64,000 nucleotides of DNA from assembly GCF_039645995.1 (NCBI RefSeq), contig NZ_CP147920.1:930001-994000 (forward strand), given 5' to 3'. The notes under the pieces were generated by a model. It was given only the letters and a program-made list of their open reading frames with translations, was not told the origin of the DNA and did no database searches. The translations under genes were made by a program, and so were the position numbers. Below, in pieces: positions 1,234 to 12,272 of the stretch (position 1 is its first letter; each line of letters starts with the position of its first letter). Origin of the DNA: Sulfurimonas sp. HSL3-1. Its GTDB lineage: Bacteria; Campylobacterota; Campylobacteria; Campylobacterales; Sulfurimonadaceae.

Positions 1234-2949
1234 TTACGGCTCGTAGACGGAGACGGCTTTGCGCTCTTTGAACCCGAAGTGGCGCTCGAGGTCGGCGTTG
1301 TGCAGCAGCACCGGTACGACCATCAACGACGCGACGACGGCGGCGATGGTGCCGAAAATGAGTGCGACGCCCAAGCCGCCGAAAACGGCATCGCTGGCGA
1401 GCAGCGTCGAGGCGAGGATGATCGCCGTCGCCGTCAGGAAGATCGGCTTGGCGCGGGTGGCAGCGGCATAGGCGAGCGCTTCGGTTTTATGCATCCCTTT
1501 TTCACTCATCAGCGACTTGGTGAAGTCGATGAGCAGCAGCGAGTTGCGCGAGCTGATCCCGATCAGGGCGATGAAGCCGATCAGCGACGTCGCCGTCAGG
1601 AAGAAGGTGTCGGCGCTGAAGAGGTCCATAATGAAGTGACCCACGATGACCCCGATGATGGAGAGGAAGCTTCCCAGAAGGACAATGCCGCTGAGCGTAA
1701 AGCTCTTGTAGTAGACGACCATCAGCAAGAATATGAGCACGAGCGCGGCGATGAAGGCCCCGCCCAGGTCCCGGAAGGTGTCAAGGGTAACTTCCATCTC
1801 GCCGTCCCAGTGAAGCTCGTAATGGCTCCCCGTATTTTTGTCGGTGAGGGAGAGGTCGAAGAGGCCGCTCTTCTCGATGTCGTACTGCTCGGAGAGGGTG
1901 TCGAGGATCATATGGCGCGCGTCCATCAGCGGGTAGACCTGGGAGACCATGTCCGTTTCGGCCACGACGTTGACCATCTGGTGCAGGTCCTTGCTCATGA
2001 TCATCGGGTTGGCGCGGGTCGGGATGATGTCGACGACCTCGGTCAGCGGCACGAGCAGGCCGTTGCTATTCATCAGGCGCAGCCCGGAAAGCTTCTGTTC
2101 GAGGGCGCGTTTGTCCTTGCGGCTGAAGACCTTCGATTCCGGGCTCAGGGTCAGGAAGATCGGGATCTGTTCGTTGATCGTTTCGCTGTTCTTGACGGCG
2201 ATGTCCATCCCCTCGAACGCGAGGTAGATGATGTCGTTGACCTGCTTGATGGAGAGGCCCGAACGGGTGATCTTCGTGCTGTTGACCTTGAGGTCGAAAC
2301 GGTCGTAGAGCTCGTCGGCCATGACGTCGATGTCGACGAGACCCGCCGTCTGGTGGAAGATGGCGGCGACTTTGCCGGCAAGCTCGCGGATACCCGCGGC
2401 GTCGCGTCCGTAGATCTCGGCGACAATGGCGGCCAGGGTCGGCGGTCCCGCCGGCGGTTCGACGAACTTGATGTTCGTGCCTACTACGATGGGCTGGCAC
2501 GCCTCCTGGATCACCGGGCGGATGCGCTGGACCATCATGTAGGAGGGCTCGCCGCGGTCATGCTTCTTGGTCAGGTTGACGACGATCTCGGAGACGTTCT
2601 CCGAATTTTTAAAGTGGCTTCCCTTGATGAGGCCCGCGAAGTCAAGAGGCGAACCCATGCCGAGGAAGGTCTCCGTGTCGAGCACCTCCTGCTCCTGCTG
2701 GATATAAGAGGTGACGCACTGGCTGACGGCGTCGGTCTGGCGGATGGAGGAGCCGTTGGGCAGGTCGACGTAGATACTGAAGGTGTCGTTGTTCTTGCCC
2801 GGAAGCATCTTCGCCTTGACGATCTCGGTCGGTGCGATCATCAGCACGGAGAGGATGAAGGCAACGAGTGTCGCGATCAGGATTATCTTCTTCTGGGCTC
2901 TGCTCTGCAGTAGCGCCGTAATGAAGCTTTCGAACTTCTGGAAGATCAT
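1234..2949 (-). CDS. RND efflux pump, C-terminal half (split gene)
   Basis: 571-residue protein equal to the second half of an AcrB-type RND permease. It has an N-terminal membrane helix (about 22-40, the TM7 equivalent), a large periplasmic region (about 45-390) and a C-terminal five-helix membrane block (about 395-555). In TM10 the sequence is GISSRNSLLLIDF, so the proton-relay Lys of AcrB (K940) appears as Arg468. Its ATG overlaps the TGA of the N-terminal half by 4 bases and it carries its own AAGGAGG site inside the end of that gene, so it looks like a settled two-gene arrangement rather than a fresh frameshift. Substrate unknown. The two chains should assemble in the inner membrane with the adaptor and TolC-like channel encoded upstream. 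Confidence 0.88.
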   Translation of the reverse strand: MIFQKFESFITALLQSRAQKKIILIATLVAFILSVLMIAPTEIVKAKMLPGKNNDTFSIYVDLPNGSSIRQTDAVSQCVTSYIQQEQEVLDTETFLGMGSPLDFAGLIKGSHFKNSENVSEIVVNLTKKHDRGEPSYMMVQRIRPVIQEACQPIVVGTNIKFVEPPAGPPTLAAIVAEIYGRDAAGIRELAGKVAAIFHQTAGLVDIDVMADELYDRFDLKVNSTKITRSGLSIKQVNDIIYLAFEGMDIAVKNSETINEQIPIFLTLSPESKVFSRKDKRALEQKLSGLRLMNSNGLLVPLTEVVDIIPTRANPMIMSKDLHQMVNVVAETDMVSQVYPLMDARHMILDTLSEQYDIEKSGLFDLSLTDKNTGSHYELHWDGEMEVTLDTFRDLGGAFIAALVLIFLLMVVYYKSFTLSGIVLLGSFLSIIGVIVGHFIMDLFSADTFFLTATSLIGFIALIGISSRNSLLLIDFTKSLMSEKGMHKTEALAYAAATRAKPIFLTATAIILASTLLASDAVFGGLGVALIFGTIAAVVASLMVVPVLLHNADLERHFGFKERKAVSVYEP

Positions 2950-4544
2950 TTATGGCCTCCTTCATGTTTCGCATGGTCGGGACGGTGCATCATCCGCTTG
3001 GCGAAGTAGGGGGTAAAGATATAGGCGACGAAGAGCGACGCGATCAGCGCCACCGGAACGTTGGCCGGAATAGGTTTCATAAACTGGCCCATCATGCCGC
3101 CGACAAAGGCCATCGGGACCATGGTGAGGATGATGGCGAAGGTGGCGATGTTCGTCGGGGGCCCGATCTCGTCGGTCGCTTCGACGAGCAGGTCGTCTTT
3201 GGGCATGTCCGCCGACTCCACCGAGTGGAAGTGCCGGTGGATGTTCTCGATGACGATGATCGCCGCATCCACGAGGAGCCCCAGTGAGAGCAGGAAGGCA
3301 AAGAGGGTGATCCGGTTGATCGTCTGCCCGGTGATATAGGCGATAAAGAGAGTGATCGCCAGGATGGCCGGGACGGTAAAGGTGACGATGAGCGATTCGC
3401 GCCAGCCCAGGACAAAGACGAGCAGAATCGCGATGATGACGATGGAGATGATGAGGTGGAAGACCAGCTCGTTGACCGCTTCATTGGCGCGCTCGCCGTC
3501 GTTGCGGGTGATGGAGTATTTGATGCCCGCCTTTTCGAGCATAGGCTTGAAGTTTTCAAGGGCCTCTTTAACCTCGTCGGCGATGACAACGGCATTGGTG
3601 CCTTTGAGTTTGGAGATCGTCAGGGTGACCTGCTCCTGCGCGGGGGTGAAGGTGTCGCCGTCGCGGGCGCTGATAGCGGCGGAACGGAAGTTCTGGATGT
3701 CGTAGCCGTCTTCGACCTTGGCGACGTCACGGAGGTGAATGGGCGCCCCCATGTACTGGGCGACGATGATGTCCTCGACATCCCGGACGCTTTCGATGGC
3801 GTTCTTGATGCCCATGATGACGATCTCACCCTCTGTGGTACGGTTCTTGACGGCCGGCACGTTGTAGGCGAGGGCCTGGACCGCCTGGGTGATCTGCTCC
3901 AGCGAGAGGTTGTAGCCGGAGAGTTTGTTCAGGTCGACGAGGATGTTGTACTGGTGCTTATGCCCCCCTTTGAGCGCCGTGACGGCGACGTTGGGCAGGC
4001 CGTTGATGGCGTGCTGGAGGTTCTTGACCGCATCGTAGAGCCGGGTGTCGTCCATCTTGGAGGGATCCTTGGCGTAGAAGGCCACGGAGACGATGGGGAT
4101 GTCGACGTCGATGTCGAGGGGTTTGATGACCGGCTGCATCGCGTTTTCGGGGAAGATGTCGGCGTTCTGCATGATCTTGTCGTAGACCTTCAGATTCGAA
4201 TCCTCTTTCTCCTCGCCGATGTAGAAAGCGGCGTTGACGATGCCGACGTTGTCCATGGCCATCCCCATGATGTGCTCGATGCCGAGCACCTCTTTCATCT
4301 TGCGCTCCAGCGGACGGACGATGACGTTTTCGACCTCTTTGGCCGTGGCGCCGGGCAGGGCGATGATGACGGTCGAACCGCTGACGACCATCTGGGGGTT
4401 CTCTTCGCGGGGCATGATCATCAGCGAGAGGTAGCCGATGGCAAGCAGCGTGATCCCCAGGATCATCGTCAGCGGGCTGTTGATGAAGTAGCGGGCAAGC
4501 TTACCCGCGTAATCCTTGGGCGTATAGGGTTTGTGTGCGTGCAT
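2946..4544 (-). CDS. RND efflux pump, N-terminal half (split gene)
   Basis: 532 residues matching the first half of an HAE-type RND transporter: TM1 (about 25-45), a periplasmic porter region (about 46-360) and TM2-TM6 (about 360-515). The TM4 relay motif reads GLLVDAAIIVIEN, so only the first of the two usual aspartates (D426) is kept and the second is Ala. Full-length RND pumps have about 1,040 residues; this half plus the next gives about 1,100. It lies 9 bases after the adaptor gene in a four-gene operon (outer-membrane channel, adaptor, pump N, pump C). Substrate cannot be told from sequence. Confidence 0.88.
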   Translation of the reverse strand: MHAHKPYTPKDYAGKLARYFINSPLTMILGITLLAIGYLSLMIMPREENPQMVVSGSTVIIALPGATAKEVENVIVRPLERKMKEVLGIEHIMGMAMDNVGIVNAAFYIGEEKEDSNLKVYDKIMQNADIFPENAMQPVIKPLDIDVDIPIVSVAFYAKDPSKMDDTRLYDAVKNLQHAINGLPNVAVTALKGGHKHQYNILVDLNKLSGYNLSLEQITQAVQALAYNVPAVKNRTTEGEIVIMGIKNAIESVRDVEDIIVAQYMGAPIHLRDVAKVEDGYDIQNFRSAAISARDGDTFTPAQEQVTLTISKLKGTNAVVIADEVKEALENFKPMLEKAGIKYSITRNDGERANEAVNELVFHLIISIVIIAILLVFVLGWRESLIVTFTVPAILAITLFIAYITGQTINRITLFAFLLSLGLLVDAAIIVIENIHRHFHSVESADMPKDDLLVEATDEIGPPTNIATFAIILTMVPMAFVGGMMGQFMKPIPANVPVALIASLFVAYIFTPYFAKRMMHRPDHAKHEGGHK

Positions 4545-4553
4545 CTGCGCTCC

Positions 4554-5348
4554 TTACGGGATCGTGACCGTGGCGTACATGCCCGGGTAGATCGGGGCCT
4601 TTGAGCTCGTTTTGAAGGCGACCTTGACGCGGAAGGTGTGCGTCATCGGGTTGGAACTCGGGATGATGGCGCTGACGGTGCCCGTCGTCAGCAGCCCGAC
4701 AGAGGGAACCTCGACGGCGACCTTGGTACCGTAGGGGACTTTGGAAAGGTCGCTCTCAGCAACCTCGATGGCGATCTTGAGGTCGCTGAGGTCCGCCAGG
4801 ACGAAAGCGGGCATCCCCGGCATCGCCATCTCGCCGACTTTGATGTTCTTGGCGATGATGACGCCGTCGTTGGGCGCTTTGATGCGGAGGTAGTTGTACT
4901 GGTTGTAGACTTCGGAGAGCTGTGCCTTCGCCTGCGCGACCTGCTTTTTGCTGATGTCGACCATGTCTTCCATGTTCTTGGCGGCCAGTTCGAGGTTCTC
5001 GACCTCGTACTGGCTGACCATGTTTTTCTCCAGCAGGCGTTTGTAGCGGGCCAGGTTGAGCCGGACGTTGCTCAGCTGGTTCTGGTTCATCTGCAGGGCG
5101 AGTTCGGCCTGGGAGATGCCCAGTTCGACCCGCGCTTTGGCGCTGTCGACCTCTTTGGAGTCGATACGGTAGAGCAGCTGCCCCTTTTTGACGCGTTCGC
5201 CCTCGGAGGCGCCGACCTCGGTGACAAAGCCCATGTAGCGGCTGGTGATCATCTTCTGGTTATCCGAGATGACGCTCCCGGCGACGGTGAGGCCGTCGGC
5301 GGCGAGCGCGGCCGCGGCTAGCATAAAAGAGAGAAGCAGTTTTTTCAT
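4554..5348 (-). CDS. RND periplasmic adaptor (HlyD/AcrA-like membrane fusion protein)
   Basis: 264-residue exported protein with a signal peptide (about 1-17). Order: a first lipoyl half (GFVTEVGASEGERVKKGQLLYRID), a long alpha-helical hairpin (about 50-135), the second lipoyl half (IKAPNDGVIIAKNIKVGEMAMPG) and a beta-barrel segment with VEVPSVGLLTTGTVSAI. It is shorter than AcrA (about 370) and lacks most of the membrane-proximal domain, as in small adaptors of CusB/MdtA-like pumps. The start overlaps the stop of the TolC-like gene (ATGA). It should bridge the split RND pump and the outer-membrane channel. Confidence 0.88.
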   Translation of the reverse strand: MKKLLLSFMLAAAALAADGLTVAGSVISDNQKMITSRYMGFVTEVGASEGERVKKGQLLYRIDSKEVDSAKARVELGISQAELALQMNQNQLSNVRLNLARYKRLLEKNMVSQYEVENLELAAKNMEDMVDISKKQVAQAKAQLSEVYNQYNYLRIKAPNDGVIIAKNIKVGEMAMPGMPAFVLADLSDLKIAIEVAESDLSKVPYGTKVAVEVPSVGLLTTGTVSAIIPSSNPMTHTFRVKVAFKTSSKAPIYPGMYATVTIP

Positions 5349-6736
5349 TGTGTGACTCCGTTGGCAAGTTTTTCAAGGGCGAACACCCGTTCGGTCCGTT
5401 TGTTTTTGACTTCCAGCAGGGCAAGGACCTTCTCAAGCTGCTGGGACTGTTTGATAACGACGTCGCTCATGGAAGCGAGCTGCTCGCGGTAGCGCGCCTC
5501 GTAGCTGGTGTAGATCTCCTTGGCGAGGGCCAGCTCTTTGGAGAGGGCGTCGATTTCGTAGTCAAGCGATTTGATCTCGGTATGGATCTTGTCGACCTGC
5601 AGCGCGATCCCTTTTTTCGCCAGGTCGATCTGCGTCTTGGTCTTGAGGGTCTCGATGCGGGCCTCTTCGTATGCGGCGTAGTCGCTGCCGCCGGCGAAGA
5701 GGTTCCACTTGAGCTGGACGCCGACGGTGTAAGAGCCTTTGTCGGCGGCATAATGCTCGAAACTGTCGGCGGCGGTCTGGACATCGGCCTGGAAGCCGAC
5801 CATCGGCAGGTAGTCAGAAAGGGCGACGTCCTGCATGCTTTCGCGGATCTGCAGACCCGTTTTGGCCCGCTGAACGTCGATGTTGGCGGCGATGACGTCC
5901 GCCGTCTCTAGCGGCGGCAACGGGACGTCGGAATCGGGAAGGGCAATGGTGCTGACGGGCTGGTCGAGGAGGAAGCTGAGGTAGTGGTAGAGCAGCTTTT
6001 CGTTCGCTTCCATCTGGTGGATGGAGCGCGCCACGTTGGACTTTTTCGCCTGGACTTCAAGCAGGTCCGTCTGTTTGGCATACCCCTCCTGGATCATTGA
6101 CTGCGTCATCGCTTCGAGGGTGCCGATGTTGTCGTAGATCGTTTTCAGGTTCGAGAGCGCCTCATCAAGCAGGCGCATGTCGTAGTAGGCCTTGCGGGTC
6201 TCGTAGATCTTTTCATTGAGCAGTTTTGTTCTGTCGAGGCGTTTGAGGCGTTCCATCCCCTCGGCCGCTTCGACATAAGCGCTGATCTTGCCGCCGACAT
6301 AAAGGGGCAGGGTGTACTGCAGTTTGCTCTGGAAGAAGTTGCGGTCGCCTGGGTAGTTCAGCGCTTCCGGCGGCTGGGTATAGAGGGCATCGCAGGCCGT
6401 CAGGTCGCCGCCCTGACAGGCGGCGGAATTGGCCATGAACTCTGCAGCGCCGAAATCGCCGAAATTCGCTTCGCGGCCGGTCAGTTTGAAGCCGAAGACA
6501 TTGCCCGCATCATCGGAGCGGGAGATGTTCTGGATAAAATCCAGAGAGCCCCAGTGCTGCCCCCCGGCCTGTGAAGCACGTTCACGCGCACTCTGCACGT
6601 CATAGGTTGCCGCTTTGATCTCGAGGTTTTGGGCCTTCAGCAGGTCGATGGCCTCGTCCAGGGCCAGGGCGCCGTTTTGGGCCGTCGCAGCGCCGAGGCT
6701 GAGTGCCGTTGCGCAGAGCAGGGTCGCCAGTTTCAT
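5345..6736 (-). CDS. TolC-family outer-membrane efflux channel
   Basis: 463 residues with a signal peptide (about 1-19, cleavage near TAQ). Two internally similar halves carry long heptad-type helices (about 165-260 and 370-455), the TolC pattern, with beta-strand regions in between such as VGVQLKWNLFAGGSDYAAYEEA. First gene of the efflux operon and preceded by AAGGAGAG. A TATAAT box lies about 65 bases upstream on the same strand. It provides the outer-membrane exit duct for the adaptor and RND proteins encoded downstream. Confidence 0.88.
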   Translation of the reverse strand: MKLATLLCATALSLGAATAQNGALALDEAIDLLKAQNLEIKAATYDVQSARERASQAGGQHWGSLDFIQNISRSDDAGNVFGFKLTGREANFGDFGAAEFMANSAACQGGDLTACDALYTQPPEALNYPGDRNFFQSKLQYTLPLYVGGKISAYVEAAEGMERLKRLDRTKLLNEKIYETRKAYYDMRLLDEALSNLKTIYDNIGTLEAMTQSMIQEGYAKQTDLLEVQAKKSNVARSIHQMEANEKLLYHYLSFLLDQPVSTIALPDSDVPLPPLETADVIAANIDVQRAKTGLQIRESMQDVALSDYLPMVGFQADVQTAADSFEHYAADKGSYTVGVQLKWNLFAGGSDYAAYEEARIETLKTKTQIDLAKKGIALQVDKIHTEIKSLDYEIDALSKELALAKEIYTSYEARYREQLASMSDVVIKQSQQLEKVLALLEVKNKRTERVFALEKLANGVTQ

Positions 6737-6798
6737 GATTGCTCTCTCCTTGTGTTGTTGCGAATGTTACAAAAAAGTTATAAAAATTATGAGGATGA

Positions 6799-6804
6799 AT
6801 TATA
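6799..6804 (-). promoter_or_regulatory. -10 box (TATAAT) for the efflux operon
   Basis: TATAAT on the minus strand, about 60 bases before the TolC-like start. The divergent region also holds 10-bp inverted copies ATGTAAACAC (6824-6833) and GTGTTTACAT (6917-6926), which may be regulator sites. Confidence 0.5.
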
Positions 6805-7014
6805 CACCATACGATCTTAATCAATGTAAACACGCCAGCACGCCCCGGCACGGTTTTTTCATTAAGAGCATAGGAAAATCTTATCACAATATTCACAAGC
6901 TTTCCACTGAATAGGGGTGTTTACATGCCCGTTACCACATTTTTACCCTATTTAAGCTACACTTGCAGCATCTTACGGAAACGCCCCTGTAGGCGGTGTA
7001 TCAGAGGAGTACGG

Positions 7015-7611
7015 GTGAGTCTCAAAGAGAATATCTCGATGGTTAAGGAAGAGCTGAGCACGGAGGAACAGTTCTTCGAACAGGCAGTCAAGACCGAACG
7101 GTTCGTCAAAAAGTACAAGAAACCGCTGATCGCGGCGGTAGCGGCGGTGGCCCTCGCCGTCGTCGGCACGGCGGCGTATGACGCCTATGACGCTTCCAAA
7201 CGCGACGCGGCAAATGCCGCCTACCTGACCCTGCAGTCCGACCCGACCAATGCGGCGGCAAAAGAGACGCTCAAGGCGAACGCGCCGCAGCTTTTTGACG
7301 CATGGAAAATGTCCGTGGCGATCAAAAGCGGCGACGTCAAAGTCCTCCAGGCGCTGACGTCGTCCCCGGCGTCCGAAGTTGCCGACGTCAGCAGCTACGA
7401 AGCAGCGGCGATCGCCAAAGACGCCAAAGCGCTGGGCAGCTACAGCTACCGCCAGGGCGGTGTTTACAAAGAGATGGCCCTGATCGACGAAGCCGTGCTC
7501 CTGATGCAGGAGGGCAAAACGGATGAGGCGCACCGCCGTCTGCAGATGATCGGGGAGCAGTCCCCGCTCGCACCACTGGCGGAAGCGCTTTCGCACTACG
7601 GCGTGAAATGA
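7015..7611 (+). CDS. YfgM-like single-pass membrane protein with TPR-type periplasmic domain
   Basis: About 198 residues. A charged N-terminus ending KYKKP is followed by one membrane helix (about residues 43-60, AAVAAVALAVVGTAAYDAY) and an alpha-helical periplasmic domain ending in TPR-like helices (EAVLLMQEGKTDEAHRRLQMIG). I take the GTG at 7015, which has GAGGAG 5 bases upstream; ATG at 7039 is an alternative. The next gene, overlapping by 4 bases, encodes a BamB-like lipoprotein, the same order as yfgM-bamB in E. coli, which supports an envelope role. The family assignment is an inference from topology and context. Confidence 0.65.
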   Translation: MSLKENISMVKEELSTEEQFFEQAVKTERFVKKYKKPLIAAVAAVALAVVGTAAYDAYDASKRDAANAAYLTLQSDPTNAAAKETLKANAPQLFDAWKMSVAIKSGDVKVLQALTSSPASEVADVSSYEAAAIAKDAKALGSYSYRQGGVYKEMALIDEAVLLMQEGKTDEAHRRLQMIGEQSPLAPLAEALSHYGVK

Positions 7612-10841: not shown

Positions 10842-10945
10842 GAGTGAATAATTTTTGGAAAGAAATATGCATTATCCCTTGCGGAAAATTATCGGGAATA
10901 CGTTCTGTCTACCCGGTTCCGAAATTCAAATGCAAGAGGGTCGTA

Positions 10946-11137
10946 ATGTCTCAGAAAGTGCAAGTCAAAATCGAAGGTCTCCCGGAGGGAGCTATCAGTG
11001 CCGAAACAATGCAGAAAAAGATCATGAAGAACATCGTTGCCGAGATCAAATCTGCCAATATGGACGGGCTGAACCCCTTCGACCTCGATATTGACGCAGG
11101 TCTGGATGTCGCCGTTGAGATGACGCCGGGCGCCTGA
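10946..11137 (+). CDS. 63-residue peptide, candidate RiPP precursor
   Basis: Small acidic/amphipathic protein with no Cys, Trp, Tyr or His and a single aromatic residue, Phe45, in NPFDLDIDAGLD. It ends in MTPGA. The start at 10946 has GAGGG at good spacing; the longer reading lacks a ribosome site. It is followed 46 bases later by a radical SAM/SPASM enzyme, the layout of peptide-modification loci in which the Phe-Asp-Leu-Asp segment could be the modified core. This role is inferred from context only; I do not recognise the peptide family. Confidence 0.6.
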   Translation: MSQKVQVKIEGLPEGAISAETMQKKIMKNIVAEIKSANMDGLNPFDLDIDAGLDVAVEMTPGA

Positions 11138-11151
11138 CGTTCGTCAATGCT

Positions 11152-11170
11152 GCCGCTGCTCTCCCGCGGC
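11152..11170 (+). promoter_or_regulatory. Intercistronic hairpin between peptide and maturase genes
   Basis: GCCGC ... GCGGC inverted repeat, followed about 9 bases later by TTTT just before the radical SAM start. It could act as a partial terminator that keeps maturase levels below peptide levels. Confidence 0.35.
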
Positions 11171-11183
11171 GGCGGATGCTTTT

Positions 11184-12272
11184 ATGATCGCTTCCGTAAT
11201 TCTAAAACTGACCGAAACGTGCAATCTCGACTGCACCTACTGTTATATGTTCAATTCCGAAGACAAGACCTACACGCGTGTCCCGAAGTTCATGCCCCTC
11301 GAGACAGGCCTGAAGGCGCTTGATCGTATCGCCGATTATCTCGGAGAGCATCCCGAGCGGCGCATACGCCTGGTCCTGCACGGCGGTGAACCCTCGTTGT
11401 GGCCGGAAGCCTCCATGACCCCTTTTCTGGCAGCAGCCGGTGCGCTGCGGCGGGAGACGAAGCGGCTGGGCATCGGCCTGCAGACGAATCTCTACGACTA
11501 CGATGCGGCGCTGCTCAAACGGATCGCGGCAGCGGGCGGTTCCATCGGGGTAAGCCTGGACGGGCCGGCAGCCTATAACGACCGGCGCCGCGTGACAAAA
11601 GGAGGCGGCGGCAGCTACGCGCGGGTCGCGGAGAACCTGAAACGGCTGGAATCAGACGGGCTGCTCCCCTTTTTCGGCGGGGTCCTGAGCGTGGCGGACC
11701 CCGACATCCCGCCCGCGGACTATTTAGCCTGGATCAAGACGCTGCCGAAAAAGCGGGTGAGCGTACTTTGGCCCATCCACTACAACTACGACGCGCCGCC
11801 GAATCGGGATTACGGGGCGTGGTACGCCGAGCTTTTCCGGTTGTGGGCCGAGGCGGACGACCCTTCGATTGATATCCGCATCTTCCGCGACGCGATCAAG
11901 CGCATGCTGGGCTCTTCACACCACGGCGATGGTGTCGGGGGCGAAAGGCTCAACAGCGTCATCGTCAACAGCGACGGGCAGTATGAACGCCATGACTACC
12001 TGCGCTACTTTGCCGACGGCGCGGTACGGACGGACTTCAACGTCCGCGAGCACGGGCTGGAGACGGCTGCGCAGGATCCGGTCATCCGCCGCTGCGCCGA
12101 TCTGCGCGAAACGCTGCCGCCGGAGTGCGTCGCCTGCGGACACTACGAGGTCTGCGGCGGGGGCTTCGTTGCGAACCGCCTCGGCGGGGAGGGCGTGGAT
12201 TTTTCGCGCAAATCGGTGATGTGCGGGGATCACCAGCGCTTCTTTGACACGGTCCGTTCCTACCTCGGCTGA
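11184..12272 (+). CDS. Radical SAM/SPASM peptide-maturase-like enzyme
   Basis: 362 residues. The radical SAM cluster motif is CNLDCTYC (C13, C17, C20), followed by HGGEPSLW (SAM-binding GGE), LQTNLY and SLDGP. A C-terminal SPASM/twitch region has C304, then C315-x2-C318-x5-C324 with GGG, and C347. The opening ILKLTETCNLDCTYCYMFNS with a following PKFM resembles FxsB/GrrM-type enzymes that make cyclophane crosslinks in short peptides. The anaerobic sulfatase maturases are the alternative, but no sulfatase is nearby. The 63-residue peptide gene just upstream is the obvious candidate substrate. There is no transporter or protease gene beside it. Confidence 0.8.
   Translation: MIASVILKLTETCNLDCTYCYMFNSEDKTYTRVPKFMPLETGLKALDRIADYLGEHPERRIRLVLHGGEPSLWPEASMTPFLAAAGALRRETKRLGIGLQTNLYDYDAALLKRIAAAGGSIGVSLDGPAAYNDRRRVTKGGGGSYARVAENLKRLESDGLLPFFGGVLSVADPDIPPADYLAWIKTLPKKRVSVLWPIHYNYDAPPNRDYGAWYAELFRLWAEADDPSIDIRIFRDAIKRMLGSSHHGDGVGGERLNSVIVNSDGQYERHDYLRYFADGAVRTDFNVREHGLETAAQDPVIRRCADLRETLPPECVACGHYEVCGGGFVANRLGGEGVDFSRKSVMCGDHQRFFDTVRSYLG

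Follow-up and report, generated by a model that had tools for sequence, protein, structure and literature searches.

Among the systems described so far, one of the closest to the locus reported here is that of ChlB, a protein in which a radical SAM part is fused to an alpha-ketoglutarate HExxH part. In the passages of PMC12636437 that cite Morishita 2024 and Ruel 2025, ChlB is presented as a cyclophane synthase acting on ChlA, after which its HExxH part hydroxylates Asp and His. The three-residue cyclophanes reported in PMC11002830 are attached to Asn, Asp, Arg, Ser or Ala, and not to Leu. Related peptide-modifying enzymes are collected in the NCBIfam families YhhB (NF041707) and FxsB (TIGR04269), and triceptide (3-CyFE) systems are recognized by an enzyme with a CX3CX2C core and a ChlB/YhhB/FxsB-like C-terminal region, encoded beside its cognate precursor, and by a product in which a ring carbon is bonded to a beta carbon across residues i and i+2. 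A search of the literature on radical SAM RiPPs of Campylobacterota or Sulfurimonas, which did not cover the Sugiyama 2022 triceptide landscape, returned no title about the present system.

The window that we analyzed is a whole stretch of 64,000 nucleotides from Sulfurimonas sp. HSL3-1. It holds a short open reading frame followed by a radical SAM enzyme gene, which an initial annotation had read as a candidate RiPP precursor with its modifying enzyme. The features of this locus, in window coordinates, are the following.

10842 to 10945, forward strand: region upstream of the peptide gene, with a GAA..AAATGCAT-like element and the ribosome-binding sequence AAGAGGG (five-locus alignment)
10946 to 11137, forward strand: precursor peptide gene, 63 aa, MSQKVQVKIEGLPEGAISAETMQKKIMKNIVAEIKSANMDGLNPFDLDIDAGLDVAVEMTPGA (beside the enzyme gene in five genomes and two genomic contexts)
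10997 to 11065, forward strand: probable leader helix, about residues 18-40 (low-confidence model and likeness to distant precursors)
11066 to 11134, forward strand: probable core, residues 41-63, with Phe45 as the sole aromatic residue in NPFDLDIDAGLDV and as the putative cross-link position
11138 to 11183, forward strand: intergenic stretch with a GC-rich hairpin (11150-11175)
11184 to 12272, forward strand: radical SAM peptide-modifying enzyme of the YhhB/FxsB/ChlB group, 362 aa (NCBIfam, Pfam, PDB sequence and fold, tree)

The peptide gene starts with an ATG at 10946, directly preceded by AAGAGGGTCGTA, and its product contains one Phe (F45) but lacks Cys, Trp, Tyr and His altogether. The positions of both genes, their 63 and 362 codons, the peptide composition and the 46-base gap between them had all been given before, and each was found again in the sequence; over five copies of the locus, the gap varies from 40 to 48 bases. 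Within the family (228 genomes), five genomes carry the enzyme: four of the eight that belong to the genus and one from a different genus. In a sample of the order (249 genomes) it was seen in this genus only. In all five Campylobacterota genomes that carry the enzyme, the window's own included, the peptide adjoins it. Alignment of the five peptides showed that residues 35-55 are invariant. Conservation of the peptide open reading frame exceeds chance, as it retains 87-98% identity in four relatives, keeps its place ahead of the enzyme gene and has a dN/dS of 0.04-0.09 wherever this could be computed. The enzyme mostly gave values of 0.12-0.19, so that constraint on the peptide is stronger than on the enzyme. 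Between the window and its nearest relative (L002), the peptide gene has zero synonymous changes at an enzyme dS of 0.28; about ten would be expected, giving a P of about 1e-5 under a simple model. These missing synonymous changes could reflect codon constraint, RNA constraint or local recombination.

Within the genus, the neighborhood of the pair is conserved whole. The copy in the other genus (G031) shares with the window only the peptide, at 87%, and the enzyme, at 74%, and all flanking genes tested there differ. Since the peptide and enzyme genes are the sole genes common to this locus, they form a functional unit, and comparison of the sequences indicates that the pair has moved or had its surroundings exchanged. 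The cytochrome c-like gene upstream and the PEBP gene downstream of the pair in the window are absent around the G031 copy, and we rejected both as parts of the system. As anticipated by the initial annotation, the shared two-gene unit contains neither a transporter nor a protease. A few kilobases upstream, on the other strand (1234-6736), the window carries an efflux operon that by sequence encodes an RND pump, an adaptor and a TolC-like outer membrane protein; the TolC-like gene is conserved in the genus and is not present in the G031 stretch that was read. In G031, a PF10014 2OG-Fe dioxygenase is encoded downstream of the enzyme on the same strand (L020, 6536-7420, minus strand), with a small lipoprotein-like open reading frame between the two, and this protein is a possible second tailoring enzyme. 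The window genome has no PF10014 match, and a 2OG dioxygenase partner was therefore rejected there.

All five loci keep the ATGCAT-containing element ahead of the peptide gene, even that of G031 with its different flanks. Although a sigma-70 scan of the upstream region found no promoter, this conservation suggests that the element may act as one. The intergenic hairpin (10 bp, -23 kcal/mol, z -2.2) likewise occurs in all five loci, with differing sequences. It had been described as a hairpin with a T-run; the hairpin held across the loci, but the T-run (TTTT) is confined to two of them, those of the window and its nearest relative. The hairpin is thus not a conserved terminator, and that assignment was discarded.

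We then compared the enzyme with characterized radical SAM families. Its radical SAM triad, CX3CX2C, consists of C13, C17 and C20, and the region of the auxiliary cluster contains C315, C318, C324 and C347; these seven residues are invariant in the clade, and a further cysteine, C304, is not. The cysteines of the first half of the canonical SPASM domain are absent, so that of the earlier label of radical SAM/SPASM enzyme the first part stands and a full SPASM domain does not. The best NCBIfam profile was YhhB, with 229.5 bits over the full length (curated cut-off 445 not reached), followed by FxsB with 215.2 bits, also over the full length (cut-off 370 not reached). Scores for XyeB (111.6 bits, cut-off 450), sulfatase maturase (99.7 bits, cut-off 349) and GrrM (51.4 bits, cut-off 310) also fell below their cut-offs. 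The suggested FxsB/GrrM-type resemblance is therefore borne out for FxsB and not for GrrM, with YhhB closer than either and no cut-off reached. By sequence, the closest PDB protein was the radical SAM domain of ChlB (E 7e-37). ChlB was also the closest fold (Foldseek 7e-23, Z 32.4 over 349 residues), with anSME second (Z 26.9), as judged from an enzyme model built from six sequences with a mean pLDDT of 74 and weak stretches around the cluster loops. A sulfatase maturase identity, which had been proposed as a check, was rejected on profile, sequence and fold, and the enzyme groups with the cyclophane synthases. Against a defense library it gave weak viperin matches and nothing else, as expected from the radical SAM core common to both. 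Together, these comparisons support the enzyme as a relative of the cyclophane-type radical SAM enzymes that falls into no curated family. As in triceptide systems, it combines the CX3CX2C core with a ChlB/YhhB/FxsB-like C-terminal region, and a cognate precursor lies beside it in all five close homologs.

A scan of a species collection recovered four relatives that share 39-45% identity, from a proteobacterial MAG (L009), from Streptomyces canus (L010), from a MAG of the Comamonadaceae (L011) and from Polaromonas (L013); against the YhhB profile these four score 226-261 bits. A planctomycete (L012) has a more distant relative, whose open frame (5527-7092) extends for about 160 residues ahead of the radical SAM part and may include a fused N-terminal domain. 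All four of the 39-45% relatives have a short precursor-like open reading frame upstream of the enzyme, so that the pairing, whose conservation had been named as a check, extends beyond the close homologs. No further clade members were found in samples of Burkholderiales (349 genomes), Streptomyces (296), the order of L009 (61) or, beyond those named, the Campylobacterota order (249) and family (228), and plasmids and viral contigs yielded only more distant kin. A Gloeobacter plasmid (L030) and a Calothrix plasmid (L038) encode unnamed YhhB/FxsB-like enzymes with a short upstream peptide, followed by ABC transporter genes in the former and with a NACHT-domain gene nearby in the latter. In a maximum-likelihood tree of the window clade, the four distant relatives and 16 plasmid-record enzymes, among them annotated YhhB, FxsB and XyeB, the window clade and the four relatives made up one side of a branch with 100/100 support, outside YhhB, FxsB/HaaB and XyeB; the clade's own branch measured 1.41 changes per column. 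The order among the remaining enzymes is unsure because of their long branches. Given the scores below cut-off and the separate position in the tree, we did not file the enzyme as YhhB or FxsB; it belongs to a rare branch, not yet named, that neighbors the known cyclophane-forming enzymes. In L011, a mod_HExxH peptide beta-hydroxylase gene (94 bits, cut-off 40) overlaps the enzyme gene downstream, and L013 has a similar overlapping downstream gene that shares the HEHSH motif. As neither these genes nor PF10014 occur in the window cassette, tailoring varies around a constant peptide-enzyme pair.

The window peptide itself matched no NCBIfam or Pfam profile. It is thus a precursor type that is new in the sense of having no entry in the family databases searched, in agreement with the earlier suggestion of a new family. 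A low-confidence model of it (pLDDT 58) shows a strand-helix-strand-strand arrangement with the helix at residues 19-36. This helix corresponds to a helix-like stretch that precedes the core in distant precursors (SRILEAA, GRILETA and SRIMDAV, with KKIMKNI in the window). The C-terminal cores of the distant precursors (KFGLKFSLDIEF, SWDMDFTLHIH, VVFGLKW) repeat an aromatic-x-(L/M)-(D/K/H) pattern, as FGLK, FSLD, WDMD and FTLH, with FDLD in the window; the only Phe or Trp of the distant cores outside it are chain-terminal ones and one FNPA. A plain beta strand also gives an aromatic-x-Leu pattern, and for this reason we treat the motif as a lead and not as proof. When the precursors are aligned, Ala51 of the window peptide stands opposite the Phe of FGLK, and Phe45 occupies another column. 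Homology of the window peptide with the distant precursors is by itself weak, as 6 of 100 shuffles reached its score.

The sister precursors led to a further module. The core of the L009 precursor (5721-5933), DEVEVKFGLKFSLDIEF, matched Trypco1 (PF19493) with E 1e-4 and 23.3 bits (cut-off 24.6) and NF041216 (CU044_2847) with 23.4 bits (cut-off 23). Moreover, a profile of the four non-Campylobacterota precursors scored 26.6 against four Trypco1 domains, compared with a shuffle maximum of 14.4. For the window peptide, the profile-profile score was 13.5, just above the maximum of 100 shuffles (13.2), in the same register, and hmmscan against Pfam gave no Trypco1 match. From these sequence comparisons, the Trypco1 link appears good for the sister precursors and is only suggestive for the window peptide. 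The L009 precursor suggests that peptide-modifying enzymes may act on some small proteins of the Trypco1 type. Trypco1 was named after its neighborhood with trypsin-like peptidases in conflict systems (PMC7159879).

The conserved pairing and the kinship of the enzyme with cyclophane synthases support the original reading of a RiPP pair. We lean, by a modest measure, towards a two-gene RiPP unit whose likeliest product is an i,i+2 cyclophane joining the Phe45 ring to the beta carbon of Leu47. The 63-residue peptide would be the substrate of the adjoining enzyme, with its N-terminal strand and helix as a putative leader and the remainder as core. C13, C17 and C20 would bind SAM and a [4Fe-4S] cluster, allowing a 5'-deoxyadenosyl radical to be made. 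This radical would abstract a beta-carbon hydrogen from one of the core residues, which would then be joined to the Phe45 ring, and the predicted bond to Leu47 lies inside the invariant NPFDLD stretch. The intergenic hairpin would probably keep the peptide mRNA above that of the enzyme. Both the absence of Leu attachment among the cyclophanes of PMC11002830 and the position of Phe45 in a column other than that of the FGLK Phe count against this proposal, as do the beta-strand explanation of the motif and the weak homology with the distant precursors. Between genera the leader is conserved as strongly as the core, and the unit lacks a transporter and a protease; the product is therefore likelier to serve within the cell than to be a variable weapon.

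The same observations fit a possible, if somewhat doubtful, alternative, in which the peptide is a small protein kept whole, modified by the enzyme and retained in the cell like a built-in cofactor or regulatory part, with no leader removal or export. In its favor are the conservation of the full peptide length between genera, leader and core alike, the modeled strand-helix-strand-strand arrangement, the lack of a transporter or protease in the shared unit and the likeness of related cores to the Trypco1 module; however, the model is of low confidence and the window peptide's own Trypco1 match is marginal. A bolder reading makes the enzyme a cyclophane synthase of a kind apart, served by a precursor family of its own whose core derives from the Trypco1 module of bacterial conflict systems; it would link Phe to an aliphatic (Leu/Met) beta carbon, and the modified protein would work whole and intracellularly. 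This strikes us as improbable.

The chemistry itself could also differ. With the same pair of genes, the enzyme might instead catalyze epimerization, a cross-link at Asp46/Asp48 or a four-residue ring, which we regard as unlikely. The enzyme scores below every subfamily cut-off and sits in its own clade on a long branch, and radical SAM peptide enzymes are varied in their chemistry, but the closest profiles and the closest solved structure are all cyclophane synthases, and a thioether is out because the peptide has no Cys. That the enzyme is sulfatase-maturase-like or another non-peptide SPASM enzyme, with an unrelated or untranslated small open reading frame beside it, is highly improbable in view of the conserved pairing. 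Although anSME is the second-best solved fold, the sulfatase maturase profile and sequence scores are far lower, and the small open reading frame accompanies the enzyme in a second genomic context under strong purifying selection.

On the preferred reading of a cyclophane-forming unit, the locus would extend the cyclophane RiPPs by a rare branch and a new type of precursor, which occur in two genera of a single Campylobacterota family, with scattered members in Streptomyces, Comamonadaceae and another proteobacterium. Because the unit consists of two genes in about 1.3 kb, its chemistry can be tested by one co-expression. That leader and core are conserved to the same degree suggests a fixed role in the cell, an unusual trait among RiPPs, and the Trypco1 likeness of the sister precursors offers a lead on what this conflict-system module may be.

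ChlB is the closest solved enzyme by both sequence and fold, at 26-28% identity. Its auxiliary cysteines align with those of the window enzyme, and the first SPASM half is missing in both. The HExxH part is fused in ChlB and standalone in the Comamonadaceae clade members, whereas the window cassette has no HExxH domain or gene. YhhA/YhhB resembles the window pair in having the precursor directly upstream of the enzyme, and some of its loci include the 2OG oxygenase YhhC. The enzymes, however, belong to separate clades, and YhhA cores end in YDRxHxRHNR, of the YxR/HxR type, which the window core, devoid of Tyr and His, does not contain. In FxsA/FxsB and HaaA/HaaB the peptide is also encoded upstream, with HExxH genes nearby in some loci, but the enzymes again form a clade separate from that of the window, and the FNSF/FSS cores of FxsA type are absent from its peptide. 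Finally, both Trypco1/CU044_2847 models match the core of the L009 precursor, and the core alignments share one register; the Trypco1 model spans 98 positions.
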